A stretch of DNA of 64,000 nt. It comes from Synechococcus sp. CB0101 (GTDB lineage: Bacteria; Cyanobacteriota; Cyanobacteriia; PCC-6307; Cyanobiaceae). The stretch is from NCBI RefSeq assembly GCF_000179235.2, contig NZ_CP039373.1, forward strand, positions 62,032 through 126,031, read 5' to 3'. The notes beneath the pieces were generated by a model, which did not search any database, was not told the origin of the DNA, and was given only the letters and a program-made list of their open reading frames with translations. The position numbers and the translations under genes were made by a program. This document shows, in pieces, positions 36,010 through 48,533 of the stretch (the stretch's first letter is position 1; each line of letters begins with the position of its first letter).

Positions 36010-36510
36010 GTGGCTCAACCTGATCTGGTGCCGCTCTCCCAGCTTGAGCAGGAGCTCGGGATCGGCCGTGTTGATCTGCTGCTGCTGCTGCGCCGCCTCG
36101 GTATCCAGCCCCTGCGGCGCGGCATGCGCACACTGCTCACGACCGAGCAGGCCGAACAGCTCGCGAACCATGTGGGCAGTGGCGCATCGCTGGAAACCAT
36201 CACCGCTGAGCTGGTGTTGGATGAGCCAGGCCAAGACAACCTCCCCGTGCCGATGGGTGAGAGCTGGGGGGAGGCGGCGCGCTATGCCCAGCTGCGCCTG
36301 CTGCGCGAACGGCTTGAGATCCTGGAGGCCCTGATGCGCAGCGGCATCGAGCTCGACAGCCGCCAGCTCTGTGATCTGTTGGACTTGCGTCGCCTTCCGG
36401 CTGTTCAGCCTTTGGACGATGACGCCATGGGCTTCATTCGCATGGGTCTGAAGTTTTCACGGCATCAGCGCCCTGGGCAGCGCAGCAGCTGGCGAATCGG
36501 TAGGGCCTGA
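36010..36510 (+). CDS. Conserved hypothetical protein with an HTH-like N-terminus
   Basis: A 166-residue soluble protein from GTG at 36010. The N-terminus LVPLSQLEQELGIGRVDLLLLLRRLGIQP followed by RTLLTTEQAEQLANHV resembles a MerR/excisionase-like helix-turn-helix. A middle helical part (YAQLRLLRERLEILEALMRSGIELDSRQLCDLLDL) looks like a dimerisation coiled coil. The end is basic. No defined family was recognised; a DNA-binding role is inferred only. Confidence 0.6.
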   Translation: MAQPDLVPLSQLEQELGIGRVDLLLLLRRLGIQPLRRGMRTLLTTEQAEQLANHVGSGASLETITAELVLDEPGQDNLPVPMGESWGEAARYAQLRLLRERLEILEALMRSGIELDSRQLCDLLDLRRLPAVQPLDDDAMGFIRMGLKFSRHQRPGQRSSWRIGRA

Positions 36511-36515
36511 AGGCT

Positions 36516-37187
36516 GTGGGGTATCAACACCCGGTTGCTTTTGAAGATCTAGCCCGTGGTTTCAGGGCTTTTGTGGTTGGAACCACGGTGATGGTGGCAG
36601 GGTTGCTGGCCCGGTTCCATCCGGCAGAGGCCCTCACCCTGGCCATCCTGGTCACCATGTTGTTGGATCTGTTGCGCATGGTGCAAGCATCACTGCGCTT
36701 GGATGCTGTGCGCACGCGTCAGATTTTCTCCACCTGGCAACCGAATGGCAAGCGTTTGCTGGGCCGCACGGTTTTGCTGGCCTTTTTGAGTGTGTTGGTG
36801 CTCAGCTTCTGTGTGCATGATGTGAAAGCAGTGCAGGGGATTTTGCCCGCGCCTCTGCGGATCAGTTTATTTTTTGCGGCACTCTTTACCACTTGGCTGG
36901 AGCTGCACCTGAGTTTCGCTGTTTACTACGCGAAGGTGTATTTCTCGAGGAACCCGGAGCCCGCAGCCGATGGTGATCAGGCGCAGGTTTTTATCTTCCC
37001 TGGTACCGATGAGCCTTTGTTTACGGACTTTCTGTATGTGGCCTATTCGGTGGCGCTTACATTTGCGATGAGTGATGTGGATCTCGAGGATGGCCTTGCT
37101 CGCCGCATTGTGCTGCTTCAGGCCATCGTGAGTTTTCTGTTTTATTCCACGATCTTCAGCATGGTCACCAATTTGATGGTGAGCTAA
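36516..37187 (+). CDS. DUF1345 family membrane protein, first copy
   Basis: A 223-residue protein with about five membrane segments: FVVGTTVMVAGLLARF, ALTLAILVTMLLDLLRM, VLLAFLSVLVLSFCVHDV, FFAALFTTWLELHLSFAVYY, and YVAYSVALTFAMSDVDLED, then VSFLFYSTIFSMVTNLM. The family motif around SDVDLED is kept. Function is unknown. Its 3' end overlaps the convergent dead P-type ATPase homologue by 23 bases. A close paralogue at 46171-46842 lies on the other side of the metal-related cluster. Confidence 0.82.
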   Translation: MGYQHPVAFEDLARGFRAFVVGTTVMVAGLLARFHPAEALTLAILVTMLLDLLRMVQASLRLDAVRTRQIFSTWQPNGKRLLGRTVLLAFLSVLVLSFCVHDVKAVQGILPAPLRISLFFAALFTTWLELHLSFAVYYAKVYFSRNPEPAADGDQAQVFIFPGTDEPLFTDFLYVAYSVALTFAMSDVDLEDGLARRIVLLQAIVSFLFYSTIFSMVTNLMVS

Positions 37188-39228
37188 CGGCGCCGCGTGT
37201 GTGGCTGCGGAAGCTGTTGATGTTGCGCAGTTCGGCCAGTAGCAGGGGAATATCAGCCAGAAGCACCGTCTGCAGCGGGCTGATCGCCAGGCCGGCTGTC
37301 GCCACAGACGACAACACGTGGGTGAGGCCGATCATCACAGCATTGCCATCAGCGGTGTGTTTCAGGCTGCGGCTCAGCACCACCAGCCTTGGCAGCCATT
37401 GAGGATCGCGGCTGAGTGCCAGATCGCACAACTTGCTGGTGAGCATCCCAGCCTCATCAAAATCCAGGCCAATGGCTACATCGGCTCGGGCGAGCGCGGG
37501 GATGTCTTGGATGACATCGCCCAGGTAGCCCACCTGCTCTCCTCTGGCCTGGCAGGCCTCCACGCGCTGCAAGCGTGCGCTGGCCTCGGCTGGATCATCC
37601 ACCGACTGGCCAACGACTTCCACGGCAATGCCCAGCTCCTCCAGTTGCTGACGCACATGCTTCCAGTTTTCGTTGGGTTTGCGTTGCAGCGTGACCCAAC
37701 CCAGGCAGCGTTCCCCTTCCCGGAATTCCAGCGGTTCAACCATCACCCCTCGGCTCAGGGGTGAGGCTTCCGGCCTGCTGCTTCGTGACACCAGCAGCCT
37801 GCGCCCGTCCTGCAGATCCACGGTCCAGCCCTTCTGGCTGAGGTCGTGCAGCTCGAGATGTTGAACCGGGATCGGATTGCTGACGTTCTCCAGCTGCATG
37901 TTCCAGAGCGGCAAGGTGCTGTTGGTTGCCAGCCATTGCTGCACCCCAGCCAGGATGCGAATCAGTTCGCCGGAGCGGAGGCCGCTCTTCGGTGCGCCCT
38001 CTTCCTTGAGCTCAACTTGATGCAGCCGCTGCTCACAGCTGTGGCTCACTAAAAGACGCTGGATCCTCCCCAAATTGGAGAACACATCCGGGTTGGCGAT
38101 GTTGATCCCGTGCAGGCGCAGTTCCGCCGCGGCTGCCAGGCGGTTGGCATTGCGGCTGGTTTCCCAGTCGTTGATGGGGTTGAACTGAAAGGCGGCCAGC
38201 GCTTGCTCGCTGGCACCGCGCAGGGCCAACACGCTGCCGAGGGTAAAGAGCAGAGGATTGATGAAACGCTGGCCGGCTTGCTTGACCAGGGAGTTGCTGC
38301 GCTCTTGCAATGGTGGAGGCAGTTTGAACTGGGGGCAATCGGCAAATGCCTGGAGAACCTCAAGCTCAGCAGTGCCGGTGAGCACCAAGCAGCCCGGCTC
38401 CAGCGCATCGCCGGGCCGGTATTGGCGCGGGTGCCAGTCGCCGGTGAGTTGGCGGTTGATGGCCACCAGCTCACCGCTCACGATCTGGCAGGGCACAAAC
38501 ACGGGATCGCCCCCTTGCAGCTGAATGCGTTCGGCTCGGCACAGCTCGCCAATGGGTTTGTCGACGGCATCGGGGCCGGCCGTTCGCACACGCTCCTGTT
38601 CGGCCAGGCGGGTGATCAGATCCCGGTAATCCCCTCGGCTCAGCTCGTGGTGGCTCACCTCCTGGAGGATCGTGCTGCCGTCATCCAGGGCCAGATCCAT
38701 CAAGGCTTCCCGGGGAAGCCCCTGCTGGAGCAACACAGCGCTGAAGCCCAGATCCAGCGCCTCCACCGGCAACACGCGCCGATGGCGCACGATCCGAATC
38801 AACTCCAACACCACAGGCACCATCAATAGGGCTGTGGCTCCCTGCAGCGCCAGCACAGGCACGCCGACGAGCCAGTCCACGCCAAGCAGCCCGGCGCAGA
38901 GAGCAGCGTGGCGGATGCTGCGCTGGCTGCGTGCGCGCGGCCGCGTGATGTTTTGAAGCGCGGTGAAGCCATGGGGCAGGGTGAGGGCCAGCTCCATCAA
39001 GGCGTCGAGCCCCTCACGGCGCTGGATCGGGAAGCGAAGGCTCAGGCATCCAGCCACGGGGTTGATTCGGAACCCCTCGAGCCAGTGGCAGCCCGTGAGC
39101 ACGGTGCGGCAGTGGCGCCGCAGCGCTTCTGATTCGGCGAGCCCAAGGCAGTGCAGCCTCACGCGGCCGGGCAGCTCGCTGCGGATCTGCCACGGCGGCG
39201 CCGCTGCCGAAACCTCCGTTACCACCAT
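37165..39228 (-). CDS. P-type ATPase homologue lacking catalytic motifs (pseudo-ATPase)
   Basis: A 687-residue membrane protein with P1B-ATPase layout. It has an HMA-like N-terminal domain (ELPGRVRLHCLGLAESEALR), two helices near 125-165, an actuator-like domain, more helices near 355-380, and a C-terminal GDVIQDIPALARADVAIGL that mirrors the GDGxNDxPAL hinge. The actuator TGES is replaced by LTGDWHP. Where DKTGTLT is expected, after a RGG-like segment (HGINIANPDVFSNLGRIQRL), the sequence reads LVSHSC, with no Asp. It therefore cannot be phosphorylated and should be a structural or regulatory partner. It is last in an operon with an intact P-ATPase. Start at 39228, one base after the preceding stop. 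Confidence 0.8.
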   Translation of the reverse strand: MVVTEVSAAAPPWQIRSELPGRVRLHCLGLAESEALRRHCRTVLTGCHWLEGFRINPVAGCLSLRFPIQRREGLDALMELALTLPHGFTALQNITRPRARSQRSIRHAALCAGLLGVDWLVGVPVLALQGATALLMVPVVLELIRIVRHRRVLPVEALDLGFSAVLLQQGLPREALMDLALDDGSTILQEVSHHELSRGDYRDLITRLAEQERVRTAGPDAVDKPIGELCRAERIQLQGGDPVFVPCQIVSGELVAINRQLTGDWHPRQYRPGDALEPGCLVLTGTAELEVLQAFADCPQFKLPPPLQERSNSLVKQAGQRFINPLLFTLGSVLALRGASEQALAAFQFNPINDWETSRNANRLAAAAELRLHGINIANPDVFSNLGRIQRLLVSHSCEQRLHQVELKEEGAPKSGLRSGELIRILAGVQQWLATNSTLPLWNMQLENVSNPIPVQHLELHDLSQKGWTVDLQDGRRLLVSRSSRPEASPLSRGVMVEPLEFREGERCLGWVTLQRKPNENWKHVRQQLEELGIAVEVVGQSVDDPAEASARLQRVEACQARGEQVGYLGDVIQDIPALARADVAIGLDFDEAGMLTSKLCDLALSRDPQWLPRLVVLSRSLKHTADGNAVMIGLTHVLSSVATAGLAISPLQTVLLADIPLLLAELRNINSFRSHTRGAVSSPSNW

Positions 39229-39229
39229 T

Positions 39230-39751
39230 TCAGAAGGCAGGGGCTGCGGTGAAGGGGCGCCGCAGCTTGAAGGCGGTTTCCACCAGCACAAAGGCCAGCA
39301 ACAGCAGTGGCAACCCAGGCGCCAACGGCAAGATCAACCCCACGATCCCGCCCAGCAGCAGCAAAGCCGCTAAGCCGAGCAGGCCACTGGCGGCAAGAAA
39401 GCTGACCAGGTTTGCCGGTGCCAACACACAGCGCCAGAGGCGAGAAGGCCGATCGCGCACCACCTCCACCCGCACCTGAACCACGTCGGGCTGGGGTGGG
39501 GTGGCACCGCTGCGCTCGAGGGCGGCAACAAGGCTCTGCCAACCCTGTTGTTGTTGCTTGGGCTCTGAAGATTTGGCTTCCAGGAGGAGGGTGCTGCAGT
39601 GGCGATTCAGGCGCCAATGCCATTGGCTGGAGGGCAAGGCGGCCTGCAGTTCTTGCTCCAAGCGACTCCACTGGATCGGTGTTGTGCTGCGCAGGCGGTA
39701 CCGCCACCGATTCGGCAAGGCATGCACCAGCTCAGCGCAGCTCGACACCAT
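39230..39751 (-). CDS. HMA-like domain plus membrane hairpin protein, first copy
   Basis: A 173-residue protein. The N-terminal part (NRWRYRLRSTTPIQWSRLEQEL, WHWRLNRHCSTLLLEA) has the beta-alpha-beta rhythm of HMA_2-like domains but no CxxC. The C-terminal half is a membrane hairpin (LVSFLAASGLLGLAALLLLGGIVGLILP then LAPGLPLLLLAFVLVETAFKL), ending basic. LPLAPGLPLLLLA recalls DUF454-like segments. A related protein is at 43717-44208. It is packed between a small HTH gene and the pseudo-ATPase with 1-3 base gaps, so co-expression is almost certain. Function is unknown. Confidence 0.7.
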   Translation of the reverse strand: MVSSCAELVHALPNRWRYRLRSTTPIQWSRLEQELQAALPSSQWHWRLNRHCSTLLLEAKSSEPKQQQQGWQSLVAALERSGATPPQPDVVQVRVEVVRDRPSRLWRCVLAPANLVSFLAASGLLGLAALLLLGGIVGLILPLAPGLPLLLLAFVLVETAFKLRRPFTAAPAF

Positions 39752-39754
39752 GGT

Positions 39755-39919
39755 TTAGGCCGTTGCCCGGAGGTAGCTGTTGGAGCGATCGCAATACGAC
39801 CAGACATAGCCGGCCGGATCGAGCGACTGGATCCAGCTGCCGAAATCGCCGCGCTTGCGCCGCGCCGTGATGCTTTGGTGGGCGACGCCCAGCCGCTTCG
39901 AGAGGGCCGCCAAGCTCAT
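39755..39919 (-). CDS. Small helix-turn-helix-like protein
   Basis: A 54-residue basic protein from the ATG at 39919: MSLAALSKRLGVAHQSITAR, then RKRGDFGSWIQSLDPAGYVWSYC. The first half fits an HTH (SLAALSKRLGVAHQSITARR) and the second a small C-terminal wing, like tiny regulators seen in picocyanobacteria. Its start overlaps the stop of the P-ATPase gene by 4 bases (ATGA at 39916-39919). A role as local regulator of the cluster is inferred from position. Confidence 0.6.
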   Translation of the reverse strand: MSLAALSKRLGVAHQSITARRKRGDFGSWIQSLDPAGYVWSYCDRSNSYLRATA

Positions 39920-42213
39920 CGCTTTGGGGTGCTGCTCCACAACAGCGGGCTCTTCCGTTTTGGCGGGGGGGCTGTTGCCGTTGTTGTCGGTGCAGGGGGG
40001 GCTGCGGGGGCGAGTTGCTTGCCTTTGAAGCCGAGCACGCGCATGGCGTTAGCGGCGGCCACAAGCGCTGAGCCGTTGTTCAGCACCACGGCAGCGATCG
40101 GGCTCACGGGCAGGAAAGTGCCGAGCAGCAGGGCCGACAGGTTCGGCACACCCACGATGCCGATGTTTTGCTTCACCAGAGCGAAGGTTTCGCGGGCCAG
40201 GTCCTGAGCCACGATCAGATCCGACACCTTGTCGTTCGTGAGCACGATGTCGGCGGTTTCGCGGGCGAGGTCGCTGCCGGAGGCAAACGAAATCGACACA
40301 TCGGCGTAGGCCAGAGCCGCCGAGTCGTTGATGCCATCGCCCACGAAGGCCACTTTGTGGCCCTCCTGGCTGAGCTGCTGCACCAGCCGGGCCTTCTCAT
40401 CGGGCAGGGCATCGGCGTGCACCTCTTCGGGGCGCAGCCCCAGGCGCTTGGCCACGGCATGGGCCACGCTGCTCACATCACCGGTGAGCATGTGGGCCTG
40501 GATGCCGCGGCGGTGCAGTTCCGCCACCATCGCCTGGCTATCGGGGCGTAGGGCATCGGCGGCGTAGATCACCGCCACCACCTTGCCGTCCACGGACAGG
40601 TAAACAGGCGTGGCGGTTTCCAGCTCAGGATCGACGCTGGGCGTGGCCGGCTCCAGGTTTTCCTCACGCAGCAGCTTGGCGTTGCCCACCAGCACCTGGT
40701 GACCGGCAATGGTCGCGGCGACGCCGCGGCCGATGCGGTAATCCCATGCCTCGCACTCTTGGGCGCTCACACCGAGTTCCTCGGCGTGCTTCACGATCGC
40801 CTCGGCCACGGGGTGGTTCAAGCCCTGCTCCGCTGAGGCGGCCAGCTGCACCAACTTCTTGATCGAGTGGGCGCCCTCCACCACTTCCACATGCACCAAC
40901 GAGGGATGGCCCTGGGTAAGGGTGCCGGTCTTGTCGAACACCACTACATCGATATCCACGAGCTGCTCCAGTGAGCGGCCGCTGCGGATCAGCAGGCCCT
41001 GGCTGCCGGCGCGGGTGAGAGCGGCCATGATCGCCGTCGGCACCGACACGCGCAGACCGGTGCCAAGGTCGAACATCAGCAGCGACGCCGCCTGGGCGAT
41101 GTTGCCGCCGCTCAGCAGCAGTGAGAGACCGGCCAGGGCGAGGGTGGGCAATACAAACCGGTTGGCCACCTTGCCGGCCACGTTGCCGACGCGGGTGTCG
41201 TACACCGGCGCCGATTCGATCATCGCGGTGATCTGGCCCACCCGGGTGGCTTCACCCACGGCCTGGGTTTCCACGATGAGGTTGCCCTCCAGCAGCAGGA
41301 AGCCAGCCAACACTTCATCGCCGGGGCCGGCATGGCGGGGCACCGATTCGCCGGTGAGCTTCACCACATCGAGGGAGCCTTCACCGCTTTCAATGCGGCC
41401 ATCCACTGGGATTTGATCGCCAGGGAAGAGAGCGATGCGATCGCCGGCCTGCAGGCTGGTGCTCGGCACGATCACTTCGGCGCCGTCCACGAGTAGGCGC
41501 ACATCGGTCTGCAGGCTGGCCAACAGATCGGTGTTGGCGGAATGGGCGATGCGTTGGGTGGCGTCGCGCACCGCTTCGCCGCCCTCAATCATGGTGATCA
41601 TCATCGCCGGGCCCACCAGGAAGCCCTCCAGGCTGTGAAGGGTCACGGCCAGGGCGTCGAGGAAGTCGACGTTGATCTTGCGCTCTTCCTTCAGCCCCTG
41701 CCAGGCGCGCTTGAAGCTCAGATGGGCCGACACCAAAATGAACCCTGCAACCGCGATGGGCGGTAGGGCCAGGGGACCAGCCAGCAGAGCCAGCGCCAGG
41801 GAGCTCACCGGCAGGATGATCCGGCTGGGCACAAAGCTCTCGTCGTCTTCGCCCTCGGGGTTTTGGGCTTTGGTGGCGTTCTTCGTCGCCGTTGGCGATT
41901 CAGCTGAGCGCTGCAGGCTCGGAAGCGCTCCAGGAAGTTGTTGAAGCCACTGGAGAGGATCGACAGCTGCGTCGCGATCAAATTCCACAACGCAGCAGCC
42001 AGCCAGGCTGTTGAGGCGCACGTGCTTCACCTCGGCGGCCTGGTTTAGGGCCTGTTCGAGCTGGGGCCAGCTGCTGGTGGCGCCGCCCACTCGGAAGCGC
42101 ACTCGTCTCGAGCTGTGGTGGAGCACCTCTTCCACGCTGTAGCCGGCTGAACTGGCTTGGCGTGCCACGGGCACCAAGGTGAGCTGGGGCAGACGCGGGG
42201 GTTCAGCGAGCAC
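39916..42213 (-). CDS. P1B-type heavy-metal ATPase with a non-CPC transport site
   Basis: A 765-residue ion pump. The N-terminal HMA-like domain (SSRRVRFRVGGATSSWPQLE, LAGCCVVEFD) lacks CxxC. Catalytic parts are intact: actuator KLTGESVP, phosphorylation site VVFDKTGTLTQGHP (Asp near residue 425), the P1B HP motif GLNHPVAEAI, and GDGINDSAALAYAD. The intramembrane CPC/SPC motif is replaced by MFDLGTGLRVSVPTA, as in some mycobacterial-type pumps, so the metal is not predictable (Mn, Zn, Ni or Co are candidates). The C-terminus is Pro/Ala/Thr/Lys-rich. It is the second gene of a tight five-gene unit. Confidence 0.88.
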   Translation of the reverse strand: MLAEPPRLPQLTLVPVARQASSAGYSVEEVLHHSSRRVRFRVGGATSSWPQLEQALNQAAEVKHVRLNSLAGCCVVEFDRDAAVDPLQWLQQLPGALPSLQRSAESPTATKNATKAQNPEGEDDESFVPSRIILPVSSLALALLAGPLALPPIAVAGFILVSAHLSFKRAWQGLKEERKINVDFLDALAVTLHSLEGFLVGPAMMITMIEGGEAVRDATQRIAHSANTDLLASLQTDVRLLVDGAEVIVPSTSLQAGDRIALFPGDQIPVDGRIESGEGSLDVVKLTGESVPRHAGPGDEVLAGFLLLEGNLIVETQAVGEATRVGQITAMIESAPVYDTRVGNVAGKVANRFVLPTLALAGLSLLLSGGNIAQAASLLMFDLGTGLRVSVPTAIMAALTRAGSQGLLIRSGRSLEQLVDIDVVVFDKTGTLTQGHPSLVHVEVVEGAHSIKKLVQLAASAEQGLNHPVAEAIVKHAEELGVSAQECEAWDYRIGRGVAATIAGHQVLVGNAKLLREENLEPATPSVDPELETATPVYLSVDGKVVAVIYAADALRPDSQAMVAELHRRGIQAHMLTGDVSSVAHAVAKRLGLRPEEVHADALPDEKARLVQQLSQEGHKVAFVGDGINDSAALAYADVSISFASGSDLARETADIVLTNDKVSDLIVAQDLARETFALVKQNIGIVGVPNLSALLLGTFLPVSPIAAVVLNNGSALVAAANAMRVLGFKGKQLAPAAPPAPTTTATAPPPKRKSPLLWSSTPKR

Positions 42214-42260
42214 GGGCCGAGCGATGAGGGTGTGGTGGATGGGGAGCTGGTGGTCGGCGA

Positions 42261-42590
42261 TCAGTCGACCTTCACCTTGGTAATCGCTTTATCGGCGCTG
42301 GCCGTGCTGTTGTCGGTGGAGGCTGTCTCTTCCATTTCCGACTTGGCTTCAGCCACCAGGTCCACCAACGATTCCGCGGCTTCGGCTGCGCTGCGCGCCA
42401 CATTGCGCGCTGCTGTGCCAGCCACACCGGCCACGGTCACGCCCACCTTGATGCCGCCCTTGGCCATCGACTTGCCCACGCTGCTCATCGAGTCGCTGAG
42501 CTGGTGGTTGCCCATGCGCTTCACCATGGGCGCCAGGGCCACGAGGCTGGCTCCAACACCGAAGGCCAGAACGGTCTCGAACTCAAACAT
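42261..42590 (-). CDS. DUF5132-like small membrane protein, first copy
   Basis: A 109-residue protein: a short membrane segment (VLAFGVGASLVALAPMVKRM), a Gly/Ala-rich helix (KSMAKGGIKVGVTVAGVAGTA), an amphipathic AAEAAESLVDLVAEAKSEME, and a Ser/Thr/Asp tail. This resembles DUF5132 and, in layout, the DUF1490/PacL proteins of mycobacterial P-ATPase platforms. It lies 47 bases upstream of the P-ATPase gene. A scaffold or stabilising role for the pump is inferred by analogy. A paralogue is at 44205-44495. Confidence 0.72.
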   Translation of the reverse strand: MFEFETVLAFGVGASLVALAPMVKRMGNHQLSDSMSSVGKSMAKGGIKVGVTVAGVAGTAARNVARSAAEAAESLVDLVAEAKSEMEETASTDNSTASADKAITKVKVD

Positions 42591-42711
42591 GCTCCTGGGA
42601 GGCTTCGGCAGGACAACGCGCTATGGCGTTTCCGGTTTGCGGGCAACTGTAAAGCTGTTTTGCAGTGGAACTGCTGCTCGGCGCCCATGATCAGGGCGTC
42701 CAGAATTGTCA

Positions 42712-43764
42712 ATGGCTTTACATCAGTTCGATCTCCATTGCGTCAGCGCTGATTTGCCCTCGTTGGCCTGTGGGTTGATCGCGGCCGATCAGCAGTTGCG
42801 GGGGCCGCTGCATGTTCTGGATTTAAGTGGCGAACAGTGGTTGGATCCGGCTATCCCAGCTGGCTCACTGCGGGCGTATGCGGCGGTTCCTTACGCCCTG
42901 AATCTCTGGCAGGACCTACAGCCGCGCCTGGATGCTTGGTTGCAGTTGCTGCAGCTGCAGCAACTGGAGCCGCTGCTGGTTCCTCCCCTACCTGGGGTCG
43001 ACATGCTCTTGCGCTGTTTGGCCTTGGCGGAGGCGCTGGATGAGGCCCTCAGCCAGGAGCGCCCGCTCACCGTGCTGCTCCCCGCCCCCGGAGAAGCTCT
43101 GGCGTTGCTGGAGCTGGCCCGCACCGGTCCCGCTCTGGTGGAGTCGTTGCTGGAACCCCTGCTGACCTGGTGGGATCAAACCCGCCAGAGCCTTGCCAGC
43201 CTCGAGCTGGTGTTGCGTTTGAAGTTGCCGTCTTCAGAGAGCCTGCGGCTCGATCCGCGCTGGCGTCAGCGCCTCGAGCGGATGGCGGAGTTGCTGGCAC
43301 CCCAGGCGCCCTGGCAGCTCAGCCTGGTGCTGGAGTGCAGCGATCCCCAAGCTCGGATGTTGCGCCAACGCTTCTGCAGCATCAGCCTGCGAGGTTTGCT
43401 GCCCAGTCGGGTCGGATTGCATGGCATGGCGGCTGCAGCCGTCGTGGACCATCCCCCCAGCTGGTGGCTTCAGGATCTGCAGGCCATGGTTGTGCCGGCA
43501 GCACCAGAGGCGTCGGCGTTGGAGGGTTTCCTCAAGCAGCGTCCCTGTGAAGCGCGTGCACACCTCGATCCGGAGGGCGGCCGTTGGCTGGTGCCGATGC
43601 CAGGGGTCGAGAAAGATCAGCTCGACGTTCAGCAAATCGGCACCGAGATGGTGCTGATGAGCGCTGGGCAACGTTGTGTGATCAGCCTTCCGGAGAGCTT
43701 CAAGGGGCAGCAGTGCTCAGGTGCTCGGTTGGAGCAGGGATGGCTGGAGCTCCGCTTCGGCTGA
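42712..43764 (+). CDS. ArsA-like protein without an N-terminal P-loop, with HSP20-like C-terminus
   Basis: A 350-residue soluble protein. The last 65 residues (WLVPMPGVEKDQLDVQQIGTEMVLMSAGQRCVISLP) match the HSP20/ArsA_HSP20-like domain found at the end of cyanobacterial ArsA/Get3 homologues. The middle resembles ArsA (PLPGVDMLLRCLALAEALDEA, VLLPAPGEALALLEL, EALALLELARTGPALVESLLEPLL). The N-terminus (DLHCVSADLPSLACGLIAAD) has no GKGGVGKT-type P-loop, so ATP hydrolysis is unlikely. Start ATG 42712. It is divergent from the P-ATPase operon. Possibly a membrane-protein or metal chaperone relic; this is inference. Confidence 0.7.
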   Translation: MALHQFDLHCVSADLPSLACGLIAADQQLRGPLHVLDLSGEQWLDPAIPAGSLRAYAAVPYALNLWQDLQPRLDAWLQLLQLQQLEPLLVPPLPGVDMLLRCLALAEALDEALSQERPLTVLLPAPGEALALLELARTGPALVESLLEPLLTWWDQTRQSLASLELVLRLKLPSSESLRLDPRWRQRLERMAELLAPQAPWQLSLVLECSDPQARMLRQRFCSISLRGLLPSRVGLHGMAAAAVVDHPPSWWLQDLQAMVVPAAPEASALEGFLKQRPCEARAHLDPEGGRWLVPMPGVEKDQLDVQQIGTEMVLMSAGQRCVISLPESFKGQQCSGARLEQGWLELRFG

Positions 43765-44208
43765 GTCGCCTTGTTCAGGCTTGGGGGCAGGACGCCAACC
43801 CAGCCACCAGGCCAACAGAAAAAACGGCGTGCCGGGAAGGATGGGCAAGGCCCAACCGGCTACAGCCAGAGCCATCAACACCTTGATCGACCCCTGGCGG
43901 GTTTGTCCCAACCAGCGATCCATCGCTGTGAGCGGGAGGGCCGGTCCATGCAGATCCGGTGCCACTACGGCCGCATGAACCAGGCCGGCCACCAAGGCCG
44001 GACAGAGACGTTGCTCCTCGTGGCAGGTGACCACCAAGCCGTGCCGATGGGCGGAAGCCCTGACCAACCCGCTGGGTTCCAGCTCCTGCAGGGCGGTTTG
44101 GATCAGCAGCAGCCGCTCGGCGCTCAGGGGAGCCGCAGAATCAAACCGGAGCCGGTGGGGCAGCTGATGGCGAATGGTCAGCACCCCATCGGTCCGGATT
44201 GAGCTCAC
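43717..44208 (-). CDS. HMA-like domain plus membrane hairpin protein, second copy
   Basis: A 163-residue relative of 39230-39751. The N-terminal HMA-like part is LTIRHQLPHRLRFDSAAPLS and AHRHGLVVTC. A later helix pair (VLMALAVAGWALPILPGTPFFLLAWWLGW) resembles DUF454-type hairpins, with the LPGTPFFLLA signature. The tail is polar and acidic. Its start overlaps the stop of the second DUF5132-like gene by 4 bases, and its 3' end overlaps the ArsA-like gene convergently by 48 bases. Confidence 0.7.
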   Translation of the reverse strand: MSSIRTDGVLTIRHQLPHRLRFDSAAPLSAERLLLIQTALQELEPSGLVRASAHRHGLVVTCHEEQRLCPALVAGLVHAAVVAPDLHGPALPLTAMDRWLGQTRQGSIKVLMALAVAGWALPILPGTPFFLLAWWLGWRPAPKPEQGDSAEAELQPSLLQPST

Positions 44209-44495
44209 TTCGTGCTGGTGCGGGATTGAGCCAGGTCGGCCTTGGCTTCGGCCAGAACGTCGGTGAAGCTTTCGCCCACTTCGGCCAGGCCACGGCTGAT
44301 CCCCTTCACGGCGCCGGAGGTTTTATCGGCCACCACCAGGCCGATCTTCAGACCCTGCTTGGTGATGGAGCGGCCGGTGCCGCTCACCGCACCGGTGATC
44401 TTGCTGTCTTTGCCGGCCACGGCGGCAACCACCGGAGCCAGGGCCATCAGGCCCGCGCCCAAGCCAAAGGCCAGCAGAGTTTCCAGCTCGAGCAT
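44205..44495 (-). CDS. DUF5132-like small membrane protein, second copy
   Basis: A 96-residue paralogue of 42261-42590: MLELETLLAFGLGAGLMALA, then a Gly-rich helix (SITKQGLKIGLVVADKTSGAV) and the amphipathic GLAEVGESFTDVLAEAKADLAQ. The two copies share the start (M-x-E-x-ET-LAFG-GA) and the ES-x-x-D-x-x-AEAK segment. It is coupled by ATGA to the second HMA-like/hairpin gene, so the DUF5132-like plus HMA-hairpin pairing occurs twice in the cluster. Confidence 0.72.
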   Translation of the reverse strand: MLELETLLAFGLGAGLMALAPVVAAVAGKDSKITGAVSGTGRSITKQGLKIGLVVADKTSGAVKGISRGLAEVGESFTDVLAEAKADLAQSRTSTK

Positions 44496-44613
44496 GACGA
44501 ACCAAAGAAGGCACTTGGGCGAAATTTAACGCCCGTGCCTTGAAGATGCCCCCCAATCGCCTCAGCTTGAGCAGCATGGTGTGTGCTCAATGACAACGAT
44601 GGGGGAGGCGTCC

Positions 44614-45522
44614 ATGAGCTCAGCCCAGCTTCAGCTCATGCATGCCACAAACCAGCGGCTGCGCCTCCGCTACAGCGAGCTGATGCCGGACGCCGCGCTG
44701 GAGGCATTGATCGCTGCGCTGTGGGGCCAGCCGTGGGTGCATGCGTTGCAGCAGAGGAGGGCTAGCCGAAGCCTGGTGCTGGAGCTCGAGCCGGGGTGTA
44801 CGCCGGTGCGATGGCATCTCGCTCTGGCTGATCTGGGCTGTGGCTTGGTCGATCGGCGCCGCACCGAGGCGCCGATCGATTCACCTTGGGTGCGAATGGT
44901 GCGCCAGATGGGCGGCAACATCATGGGAGCGGCTGTTGGCCAGGTGCTGCTGGGTGGCGGCGGCGCTGCGCTGGGTGCGTGGTTGTTGGGAGCACGCGGA
45001 GCCGTGATGGGTGGTGCCTGCGGCGCCTTGTTGGGTTCGGTGGTGGGTTCTGTGGCCGGTGGTGAGCTGGCCGATGGCGATAGCCCCTTGCGCAAGGGTG
45101 ATTTGGGTTCGGTCTCGATGCGCAAGCTCGGAGGAAAACTGGGGGAAGAGGCGGGTTGGAGCACCGGGGCCGCCATTGGTGCCGCCCTGGCGGGCCCAGC
45201 TGGTGCCGTGGCAGGTATGACGCTGGGTTCGATGGTGGCCGGCCAGGCGGTGGAAGATCTGATCGCCAGCCATGGGCGCGACCGCCAGGTGGGCCGCGTC
45301 AGTTGGCTGGTGCGGCTTGGGGAAGATCAAGCCGGTGAGCGGGCCAGCGAGGCCCTGCTGGGAGGGCTCGGGCGCGGCCTCAGTGGTGGGCAGGAGTGGG
45401 GGGCGCAACTCGGCACCCGTCTGGGTGGATCCCTCGGCCGCAAGATCGATTGGGCCAGCAGTTGGAGTCGTCACCAGCTGGTGAGTCGAATCAAGCCCCG
45501 TGTTGCACCCCCAGCCAGTTGA
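44614..45522 (+). CDS. HMA-like domain protein with a glycine-zipper membrane region
   Basis: A 302-residue protein. The N-terminus (MHATNQRLRLRYSELMPDAA, SRSLVLELEPG) has the same HMA-like rhythm as its neighbours and no CxxC. From about residue 105 it is dominated by Gly/Ala-rich helices with GxxxG spacing (GGNIMGAAVGQVLLGGGGAA, GAVMGGACGALLGSVVGSVAGG, GAAIGAALAGPAGAVAGMTLGS), then LGGLGRGLSGGQEWGAQLGTRLGG. Glycine zippers assemble or span membranes. GGGGGAGG at 44601-44608 supports the ATG at 44614. Function is unknown. Confidence 0.68.
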   Translation: MSSAQLQLMHATNQRLRLRYSELMPDAALEALIAALWGQPWVHALQQRRASRSLVLELEPGCTPVRWHLALADLGCGLVDRRRTEAPIDSPWVRMVRQMGGNIMGAAVGQVLLGGGGAALGAWLLGARGAVMGGACGALLGSVVGSVAGGELADGDSPLRKGDLGSVSMRKLGGKLGEEAGWSTGAAIGAALAGPAGAVAGMTLGSMVAGQAVEDLIASHGRDRQVGRVSWLVRLGEDQAGERASEALLGGLGRGLSGGQEWGAQLGTRLGGSLGRKIDWASSWSRHQLVSRIKPRVAPPAS

Positions 45523-46108
45523 TCCCCAGGTTGTGCAGCTCAAAGCAGGCGGCGTGAACCTCCAGTTGGCCGCCCTTGATGCGCTCGCGCAGCAGAACAC
45601 TGCTGTTAATCAGTTCGCGTGCGGTGACCTCAGCGTGTAGCGCGTAGGCATGGACGAGATCGGAGGCCGGTTCAAAGGTCAGCCCGGCTCCTTTGAGGCC
45701 ATTGCGGATGTGGCCCACGTGGTCCATGAGGGTTGGGGTGAGCAGATGCTCCGGTGTGCAGGCGGCGCCGACAGCGCCACAGCCGACGTGACTCATCACC
45801 AGCACCACCGGCACCTGAAGGGCCTCCACCGCGTATTCCACCGACGCCAACGTTCCCGGGGTGGAGGAATTGCCGGCATTGCGGATCACAAACAGATCAC
45901 CGAATCCGCTGTCGAAGATCAGCTCCACGGCCACGCGTGAATCCGAGCAGGTGAGCACCGCGGCATGGGGCGCCTGACCTTGTTCCAGCTCATGCAGGCG
46001 GGCTTCCGTGGCGTGCGGGTGGATTGACTCCGCCTGTTGAAAGCGTTGGTGCCCCTCCTGCAGTTCACGGATGACCTGGGCTGGTGTGGGGGTGGAGTTC
46101 TGGGTCAC
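45491..46108 (-). CDS. Beta-class carbonic anhydrase
   Basis: A 205-residue zinc enzyme interconverting CO2 and bicarbonate. Metal ligands are in VLTCSDSRVAVELIF (Cys and Asp) and MSHVGCGAVGAA (His and Cys), with NAGNSSTPGTLASVEYAVEAL between them. The order and spacing are canonical. There is no signal peptide with the GTG start at 46108; the longer in-frame start at 46183 would add 25 residues and would also overlap the divergent DUF1345 gene. It is not an obvious carboxysomal protein. Its 3' end overlaps the glycine-zipper gene by 32 bases, convergently. Confidence 0.9.
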   Translation of the reverse strand: MTQNSTPTPAQVIRELQEGHQRFQQAESIHPHATEARLHELEQGQAPHAAVLTCSDSRVAVELIFDSGFGDLFVIRNAGNSSTPGTLASVEYAVEALQVPVVLVMSHVGCGAVGAACTPEHLLTPTLMDHVGHIRNGLKGAGLTFEPASDLVHAYALHAEVTARELINSSVLLRERIKGGQLEVHAACFELHNLGINWLGVQHGA

Positions 46109-46170
46109 GTGCGTTCGGCTGGCATGGCTCTGAATTGTGGTTAGTGTGCCGCTGCAAGGCCTTTCGTGCT

Positions 46171-46842
46171 GTGAGCCGAACACATCCAGCCTGTTTTAGG
46201 GATGGCAGCCGCTTTGTCATGGCGCTGTTGGTCGGCACCGTGGTGAGTGTTGCGCTCTCCAAGGCGCTGCGGCTTCAAGAAGCGTTTCCAGTTGGATTCC
46301 TGGCCGCCATTGTGTTCGATCAAACGCGCTTTTTTCTGGAAGCGTTTCGGATTAACGCCGAGCAGACCCGTGAGATTTTTGGGCGTTGGCTGCCCAGCCG
46401 TGCGCTGTTGTTGGAGCGCACGGTGATTTTCACCTTCATCAGCGTTGGTTTGCTGAGCCTGTGTGTGCGTGATGTGCATAATCCCACTTCAACGCTCCCC
46501 CAGGACTGGCGCACGTTTATTTATTTCGCGGCACTGTTTGCTGTGTGGCTGCAGATGCACAATGGTTTTAGCATCTATTACGCCAAGAAATATTTCAAGC
46601 TCAACCCGGCTCCTGCTGCGGATGGTCCCGACCCCCAGGGCTTCGTCTTTGCGGGCTCGGATGAGCCGGAGTTCACCGACTTCCTTTATGTCTCCTATGC
46701 CGTGGGGCTCACCTACGCCATGAGTGATACCAACCTGGAAGACAGCTCGACCCGGCGAGTCGTGCTCTTTCACTCGGTGGTGAGCTTTCTCTTCTATTCC
46801 ACGGTGATTTCAGCGGTGATCAATCTGTTCACCTCGGGTTGA
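46171..46842 (+). CDS. DUF1345 family membrane protein, second copy
   Basis: A 223-residue paralogue of 36516-37187. Matching segments include HPACFRDGSRFVMALLVGTVV, ERTVIFTFISVGLLSLCVRDV, FFAALF-like IYFAALFAVWLQMHNGFSIYYAKKYF, DEPEFTDFLYVSYAVGLTYAMSDTNLED and VVSFLFYSTVISAVINLF. GTG at 46171 gives the same length and N-terminal alignment as the first copy. Function is unknown. The two copies bracket the P-ATPase/HMA-like cluster. Confidence 0.82.
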   Translation: MSRTHPACFRDGSRFVMALLVGTVVSVALSKALRLQEAFPVGFLAAIVFDQTRFFLEAFRINAEQTREIFGRWLPSRALLLERTVIFTFISVGLLSLCVRDVHNPTSTLPQDWRTFIYFAALFAVWLQMHNGFSIYYAKKYFKLNPAPAADGPDPQGFVFAGSDEPEFTDFLYVSYAVGLTYAMSDTNLEDSSTRRVVLFHSVVSFLFYSTVISAVINLFTSG

Positions 46843-47869: not shown

Positions 47870-48085
47870 GTGGCCAAGCCCGACTATCTCTACGAACCAC
47901 ACGAAGCGTTTGGCGAGGGGTTGACCACCCGCCGGCCCTGGAACACCACAGCCTTGGCTGGAGTCGAGCGCTTGAACGGTCGCGTCGCGATGCTCGGGTT
48001 TGCGGCAGCCGTGGTGGGTGAGTGGATCACGGGCCATGGCCCAGCGGGGCAAGTGTTGGATCTGCTGCGCTGGTACCTCTCCTAA
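47870..48085 (+). CDS. High-light-inducible protein (Hli/Scp), copy 1
   Basis: A 71-residue thylakoid protein with one chlorophyll-binding helix: AGVERLNGRVAMLGFAAAVVGE, carrying the ExxNGRxAMxGF motif of the LHC superfamily. The N-terminus (KPDYLYEPHEAFGEGLTTRRPW) is polar. Start is GTG at 47870. Such proteins bind chlorophyll and carotenoid and protect photosystem II assembly under excess light. A hairpin terminator lies between it and the convergent hli pair. Confidence 0.9.
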   Translation: MAKPDYLYEPHEAFGEGLTTRRPWNTTALAGVERLNGRVAMLGFAAAVVGEWITGHGPAGQVLDLLRWYLS

Positions 48086-48091
48086 GCGCAA

Positions 48092-48120
48092 TAAAAAGCC
48101 CCAGGCTTTCGCCTGGGGCT
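48092..48120 (-). terminator. Bidirectional hairpin between hli genes
   Basis: AGCCCCAGGC (48097-48106), loop TTTC, GCCTGGGGCT (48111-48120). On the minus strand the stem is followed by a T-run (complement of the A-run at 48093-48097), so it best fits the end of the minus-strand hli pair. It may also stop transcripts of copy 1. Confidence 0.82.
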
Positions 48121-48148
48121 GATGAAACCGGATCAAGGTGCCGGTGCT

Positions 48149-48385
48149 TCAGAAGCAGAAGGGTAGGAACTGGGTCCGGCAGGCGGCATAGCCGTCCACC
48201 AGGGGACCGAGACCGATTTGGTGGGCGATACCCGCGCCTGTCAGCGCCTCGGTGAGGATGCCGATCACGATGCCGAGCATGGCAGCGCGGCCGTTGAACA
48301 GTTCAACGCGCTTCAGCTGTTCCATATGGATCTGCTGGGTGGCGCGATCCCAGTACCACTTCTCGTTGGCGGGGCTATTGGTCAT
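48149..48385 (-). CDS. High-light-inducible protein (Hli/Scp), copy 2
   Basis: A 78-residue protein: polar N-terminus NEKWYWDRATQQIHMEQLKR, then the chlorophyll-binding helix VELFNGRAAMLGIVIGILTEAL with E-x-x-NGR-AM, and a longer tail GLGPLVDGYAACRTQFLPFCF containing two Cys. It starts 4 bases after the stop of copy 3, so the two form one operon. The Cys-containing tail is unusual for short Hli proteins. Confidence 0.88.
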   Translation of the reverse strand: MTNSPANEKWYWDRATQQIHMEQLKRVELFNGRAAMLGIVIGILTEALTGAGIAHQIGLGPLVDGYAACRTQFLPFCF

Positions 48386-48389
48386 GGCT

Positions 48390-48533
48390 TCAGCCCAGGC
48401 CGATCTGGGAAAGGATGCCCTGGCCGGTGAGCAGCTCGGTGCCGAGGCCGATCACGAAGCCGAGCATGGCGAGACGGCCGTTCCAGGTTTCGGCAAAGCC
48501 GACGAAACCGAAGCGAGCATTGGAGTCGGACAT
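48390..48533 (-). CDS. High-light-inducible protein (Hli/Scp), copy 3
   Basis: A 47-residue protein, MSDSNARFGFVGFAETWNGR followed by LAMLGFVIGLGTELLTGQGI and LSQIGLG. The motif AETWNGRLAMLGF is a complete LHC-type helix. It is the first gene of the minus-strand hli pair. An inverted repeat lies 4 bases upstream of its ATG. Confidence 0.9.
   Translation of the reverse strand: MSDSNARFGFVGFAETWNGRLAMLGFVIGLGTELLTGQGILSQIGLG

Follow-up and report, generated by a model that had tools for sequence, protein, structure and literature searches.

What would a cyanobacterium do with a P1B-type ATPase that lies beside an inactive homologue of itself and among a series of small membrane proteins? We examined such a locus in Synechococcus sp. 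CB0101, in a window of 64,000 nucleotides (contig NZ_CP039373.1, positions 62,032 to 126,031; coordinates below are those of the window), for which an earlier note, made from the letters alone, had proposed a metal-handling membrane platform at 37165-45522. The analysis revealed that the locus is a real, conserved calcyanin gene cluster and that it is larger than this interval. In cyanobacteria, calcyanin is known as a marker of intracellular amorphous calcium carbonate (iACC), with which it is associated. Since the glycine-zipper protein of the cluster is calcyanin, the likely substrate and purpose of the locus changed, and on balance we favor the view that it is a calcyanin module for alkaline-earth cations, of which Ca is the most likely, and for carbonate, tied to iACC.

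Calcyanin and its accompanying pump

The gene at 44581-45522 (plus strand) encodes calcyanin (ccyA), with a CoBaHMA-type N terminus and three glycine-zipper hairpins; both domains had been recognized before, while the identity of the protein had been missed. Calcyanin and ccyA of iACC-forming cyanobacteria were reportedly described by Benzerara et al. in 2022, and the names calcyanin, (GlyZip)3 and CoBaHMA are those that we take to apply to this protein from the ccyA and CoBaHMA literature. The naming also draws on two citing papers (PMC11773610 and PMC12836880). A glycine-zipper protein profile built from the genus retrieved homologues in distant cyanobacterial families, and an alignment of 13 sequences revealed three consecutive glycine-zipper repeats with a shared Gly ladder at the C terminus, the invariant columns being G116, G120, G132, G137, G148, G152, G156 and G188 to G216, followed by W242, E253, G269, G278, G282 and R287. 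The glycine-zipper part is common to the aligned homologues, and their N termini are exchangeable. In the AlphaFold2 (AF2) model, the HMA-like N-terminal domain had a predicted local distance difference test (pLDDT) score of >90, and the three helical hairpins were modeled with moderate confidence. The N-terminal model resembled domains of ATP7B, ZntA and Menkes (target-normalized TM-score of ~0.6 to ATP7B and ZntA), and this part of the protein was matched by a CoBaHMA profile made only from other families (E 7.5e-6). A calcyanin homologue is present in Synechococcus sp. PCC 6312 (carrier genome matched through its plasmid, 100% identity), in which iACC has been imaged, with a grain envelope of ~2.5 nm that is not a bilayer (PMC6087745).

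The distribution of calcyanin and of the P1B-type ATPase (39916-42213, minus strand; the pump) was analyzed in 25 genomes of the genus and in a survey of 390 genomes of the class. A pump profile from ten orthologues defined subfamily A (about 1000 bits or more), intermediate sequences (about 450 to 960 bits) and generic P1B sequences (below about 412 bits), and a profile score of at least 160 bits was taken as near full-length calcyanin. Within the genus, 8 genomes had calcyanin and 7 had the pump; in the eighth, the same cluster is cut by contig ends. Across the class, 45 of the 390 genomes encoded a subfamily A pump, as did all 24 carriers of near full-length calcyanin; with shared ancestry ignored, the hypergeometric p values of this overlap were 3e-26, 9e-11 and 1e-5 at the genome, genus and family levels, respectively. 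The pattern holds within genera g1, g16, g20, g38 and g42, whose members have both genes or neither, and partial calcyanin occurred in five further genomes, four with subfamily A and the fifth (G305) with a pump whose coding sequence is broken into two frames. On three contigs of other families (L103, L104 and L105), about 1 kb or less separates a calcyanin-like protein from the pump, and the same gene order, including calcyanin, was found in another genus (L052). The module was also observed with calcyanin elsewhere in the genome (L114/L115), in genomes without any calcyanin match (L116/L121) and without calcyanin in genus g24. A search of plasmids yielded a single distant pump, carried by a plasmid of Gloeothece verrucosa, and no mobile copy of the cluster. 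Separately, a short calcyanin remnant (L134:6841-6987) was observed in a genome (G198) that has neither full calcyanin nor a subfamily A pump, as if the two had been lost together.

Twelve genes at 36010-46842 make up the module, because a flanking helix-turn-helix (HTH) gene, two DUF1345 genes and a carbonic anhydrase gene follow the presence and absence of the cluster; the twelve parts occur, or are missing, as a set in genomes of the genus. The interval 37165-45522 was thus too short, and of the nine genes in 8.4 kb that it was said to hold, all open reading frames (ORFs) were recovered at or near their positions but eight genes remain, since the ORF at 39755-39940 is part of the P1B-ATPase; for the same reason, the tight minus-strand unit has four genes rather than five. 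The neighborhood is conserved outside the strain, its order recurring in 8 of the 25 genomes of the genus and also, both with and without calcyanin, in other picocyanobacterial genera. Six other genomes of the genus have the same genes, order, orientation and flanks (one cut by a contig end), with 54 to 96% identity for the cluster genes, a seventh is truncated by contig ends, and all cluster genes, including those for the dead ATPase and the ArsA-like protein, are under purifying selection. Given this identical order and this selection, the arrangement is not a product of chance.

The ATPase pair and the other parts of the module

The pump, which has a CoBaHMA N terminus, matched TIGR01525 (NCBIfam) with an E value of 5e-142 and retains the catalytic motifs DKTGT, TGES, GDGIND and HP, in agreement with its earlier description as an intact P1B-ATPase. 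Its transmembrane segment 4 (TM4) reads DLGTGLRVSVPT and its TM6 contains NNGS. The CPC of HMA4 aligns with LGT in TM4 (LGT or FGT across subfamily A), and more than 40 subfamily A sequences follow D[FLV]xTG[IL]R[VI]S[VI]PT in TM4 and NNG[ST] in TM6, with a TM4 Cys in one only; in condensed form the TM4 signature is DxGTG[IL]RVSVPT. The transmembrane motifs of the pump contain neither Cys nor His, and the same is true of TM4 and TM6 in essentially all members of subfamily A. The Cys/His TM4 motifs of the soft-metal classes P1B-1 to P1B-5 (CPC, CPH, SPC and TPC) were not found in the pump. The hallmark of P1B-6 pumps is an HN pair in TM6 (PMC9374683); this pair was absent from subfamily A, which has NN instead, and was seen only in some relatives outside it. 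In six relatives the ATPase is a single protein of 815 to 824 amino acids, whose last ~60 residues correspond to the 54- to 61-residue "HTH protein" of the window (39755-39940, minus strand), and the DNA alignment placed a frame change in the C-rich linker of the window ATPase, to be explained by a recent indel or by an error of sequencing. A separate HTH regulator at 39755-39940, previously listed as a gene for 54 residues, is ruled out: this ORF encodes the C-terminal HTH-like domain of the ATPase, fused to it in all six relatives.

A 708-amino-acid homologue with a CoBaHMA N terminus, which Pfam and NCBIfam models matched weakly as a P-type ATPase, is encoded at 37165-39291 (minus strand; its true start may lie downstream of 39291). 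It has lost the catalytic Asp, TGES and the TM4 motif, with VSHSC for DKTGT, TGDW for TGES and GDVIQD for GDGxND, and is the dead P-type ATPase that had been proposed; its omega of 0.16 to 0.40 over seven genomes indicated purifying selection. Outside picocyanobacteria a second CoBaHMA ATPase often adjoins the pump. Three such neighbors (L103:2911-5157, L119:5309-7552 and L122:7744-9915), from different cyanobacterial families, are full-length P1B-type ATPases, each near an intact pump, and read F-A-[KR]-T-G, that is, FAKTG or FARTG for FDKTG, and GEGxDD for GDGxND, so that the Asp is lost. The neighbor in L066 has FDSSS at the FDKTG position, the Asp is retained in L108, L110, L117 and L118, and the module in L114/L115 carries a second dead ATPase. 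As judged from these motifs, the pairing of an active and a dead ATPase in one locus is recurrent, and such an arrangement in several cyanobacterial families would be unusual among P-type ATPases.

The CoBaHMA profile built only from other families detected the domain in the pump, the dead ATPase, calcyanin and hairpin protein A (39230-39751, minus strand; E 9e-4, and by alignment), which ends in a membrane hairpin. Hairpin protein B (43717-44208, minus strand) was missed by this profile and reached by an iterated profile and by its AF2 model, a bb-a-bb-a domain (pLDDT >90 over most of it) followed by a membrane hairpin; the hairpin is DUF454-like, at 27.7 bits, below the cutoff. As the earlier note observed, the combination of such a hairpin protein with a DUF5132-like protein occurs twice. 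The latter have one TM segment each, and both fell below the PF17195 cutoff of 25 bits: copy a, rich in Ala and Glu (42261-42590, minus strand), scored 14.9 bits, and copy b (44205-44495, minus strand), which is under the strongest constraint among the cluster genes (pN/pS 0.14), scored 21.5 bits. One family profile united them with proteins passing the Pfam cutoff (49 to 66 bits), and the small one-TM proteins would therefore belong with DUF5132, transitively via that profile; for DUF1490 (PF07371), no match was obtained among the window proteins at E up to 1. L064 and L065 have true DUF5132 proteins, above the Pfam cutoff, next to the pump, and in L107 the distance between calcyanin and a DUF5132-like gene is 46 bases. 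Elsewhere, CoBaHMA domains were found fused to multi-TM proteins beside the pump (L104:5109-6260, L105:3815-4975 and L119:4103-5332; EamA-like in L104 and L119).

The ArsA-like protein (42706-43764, plus strand) resembles ArsA/Get3 in a degenerate form: only its C-terminal HSP20-like domain matched Pfam (PF17886, E 1.5e-11), and the Walker A motif is missing in it and in all aligned picocyanobacterial members and deviant in distant ones, which corrects the former assignment. Between this gene and the ATPase operon lies a putative divergent control region (42591-42705), in which an alignment of six genomes revealed a conserved TGTAAAGC block, a possible regulator site.

The beta-carbonic anhydrase (45491-46183, minus strand; PF00484, E 1.6e-31) retains the Zn ligands CxDxR and HxxC in its sequence, as CSDSR and HVGC. 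Wherever a picocyanobacterial genus has the cluster, the orthologue of this enzyme is retained alongside it, and cluster-lacking genomes of the genus have only paralogues of 39 to 48% identity or nothing. The DUF1345 membrane proteins are encoded at 36516-37187 (left copy, plus strand; PF07077, E 1.3e-28), at the same position in relatives, and at 46084-46842 (right copy, plus strand; PF07077, E 4e-30); no DUF1345 homologue was found in the eight cluster-lacking genomes of the genus. The HTH-like protein of 166 amino acids (36010-36510, plus strand), which had no Pfam match, was found in all 3 genomes tested that carry the cluster and in none of 12 that lack it (other genera included) and is a candidate regulator of the module. 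Other genera of the family likewise have the HTH, DUF1345 and carbonic anhydrase genes next to the cluster. Around the RpaB-like gene, gene order differs in cluster-lacking genomes. Immediately to the right of the module (47870-48533) are small ORFs with NGRxAMLGF motifs, resembling high-light-inducible proteins.

Substrate and purpose

In the reading that we favor, the ATPase and its dead paralogue would assemble into a heteromeric pump, set in a patch of membrane organized by the DUF5132-like and CoBaHMA-hairpin proteins, whose basic surface would bind anionic lipid. The pump would carry Ca2+ (or Sr, Ba, Mg or Mn) across the membrane, TM4 and TM6 providing the oxygen ligands, the carbonic anhydrase would tune the bicarbonate supply, and calcyanin would assemble via its glycine zippers at the membrane or the grain surface, holding or nucleating amorphous carbonate. 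The module is best read as feeding or tempering iACC, with calcyanin as its carbonate-specific part; in genera with the module and no calcyanin, it would serve cation homeostasis only. Because iACC grains lack a bilayer boundary, the probable site of pump action is plasma or thylakoid membrane close to the grain rather than the grain itself. That Ca is the pump substrate is what we infer, and the presence of a Ca-type P2 ATPase (L066:2704-5550) and of a Mg-type, MgtA-type ATPase (L119:1245-3911) near two distant CoBaHMA clusters is suggestive only. A bolder version, in which the pump is the first P1B-type ATPase to move Ca2+ or other alkaline earths, is an obligate heteromer with its dead paralogue and feeds calcyanin-dependent carbonate biomineralization, is put forward tentatively and strikes us as rather doubtful.

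Several observations weigh against the favored reading. The layer around the iACC grain is ~2.5 nm thick and not a bilayer (PMC6087745), which rules out a pump located on the grain itself, and a TM4 Arg near the Asp could neutralize a cation site. Ca as substrate is suggested by the absence of soft ligands and the presence of calcyanin, and Mn, Fe, Mg and Zn are conceivable alternatives. According to a passage of PMC11773610 that cites the ccyA paper, a published comparison reportedly found no equivalent ATPase in cyanobacteria. The pump and calcyanin are not neighbors in PCC 6312, Thermosynechococcus-like and Gloeomargarita-like genomes, and 17 genomes have the pump without calcyanin; the pump is therefore the older or broader part.

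We consider it unlikely that the locus is a heavy-metal efflux platform, in which the ATPase would export Zn, Cd, Mn or Fe, the DUF5132-like proteins would serve as PacL-like scaffolds and calcyanin would be a separate neighbor. The score of the ATPase above the ATPase-IB heavy-metal model, the occurrence of the module without calcyanin in genus g24 and the coupling of a P1B-ATPase with a one-TM Glu/Ala protein in PacL-CtpC platforms (PMC9374683) fit this account. However, the TM4 CPC aligns with LGT, the subfamily has neither the Cys nor the P1B-6 HN pair, His/Cys-rich tails and CxxC are absent, and the perfect nesting of calcyanin within pump carriers would be left unexplained. Hence, of the proposed cyanobacterial PacL counterpart, the membrane cation module and the PacL-CtpC-like layout are supported, while heavy-metal efflux, with no DUF1490 and no TM4 Cys, is not favored.

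The loss of TM4 metal ligands, the basic CoBaHMA domains in five module proteins, the dead ATPase partner and the layer, as yet unexplained, that surrounds iACC grains (PMC6087745) would also suit a lipid- or membrane-shaping machine, in which the two ATPases would transport or sense an anionic lipid, or serve as a conformational motor, and CoBaHMA domains would organize a membrane patch or inclusion envelope; this is improbable, since P1B-type ATPases are known as cation pumps only and the module has no lipid-processing gene. A ferrosome-like iron organelle is more improbable still: ferrosomes are membrane-enclosed cation stores whose clusters likewise center on a P1B-6-type ATPase and small membrane proteins, and P1B-6-like relatives with the TM6 HN pair exist outside subfamily A, but neither the carbonic anhydrase nor calcyanin fits such a system.

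Comparison with known systems

Intracellular calcium carbonate formation in cyanobacteria is an open problem with calcyanin as its main marker gene, and no pump has been linked to calcyanin so far, as far as the literature found shows. The calcyanin-tied pump subfamily, the compact locus with a carbonic anhydrase and the active/dead ATPase pair offer concrete targets for knockouts bearing on how these cells handle Ca and carbonate. We know of no earlier description of calcyanin together with a P1B-type ATPase, a dead paralogue and a carbonic anhydrase.

The CoBaHMA domain family is said to have been described by Gaschignard et al. in 2024, and the HMA-like fold, the extra N-terminal strand and the conserved basic residues (HxxPGRxRxR) are common to it and to the proteins described here; the present locus differs in having five CoBaHMA proteins, of which two carry membrane hairpins and another is a dead ATPase. 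With P1B-6 ATPases the pump shares the P1B architecture, and some related sequences retain the TM6 HN, whereas subfamily A shows NN there and is without Cys in TM4. As in mycobacterial PacL1-CtpC (PMC9374683), the P1B-ATPase has as its neighbor a small protein with one TM segment and a helix rich in Ala and Glu; the window, however, has DUF5132 rather than DUF1490, the latter reported from Actinobacteria only (PMC9374683), lacks the DLHDHDH metal-binding tail of PacL1 and has several extra parts, and CtpC carries CPC and HN, neither of which is present in the window pump. As for calcyanin itself, the protein has the N-terminal HMA-like domain and the triple glycine zipper of the known calcyanin and is homologous to that of PCC 6312, whereas here its gene is one of twelve in a module that also encodes a P1B-type ATPase, the dead paralogue of that ATPase and a carbonic anhydrase.

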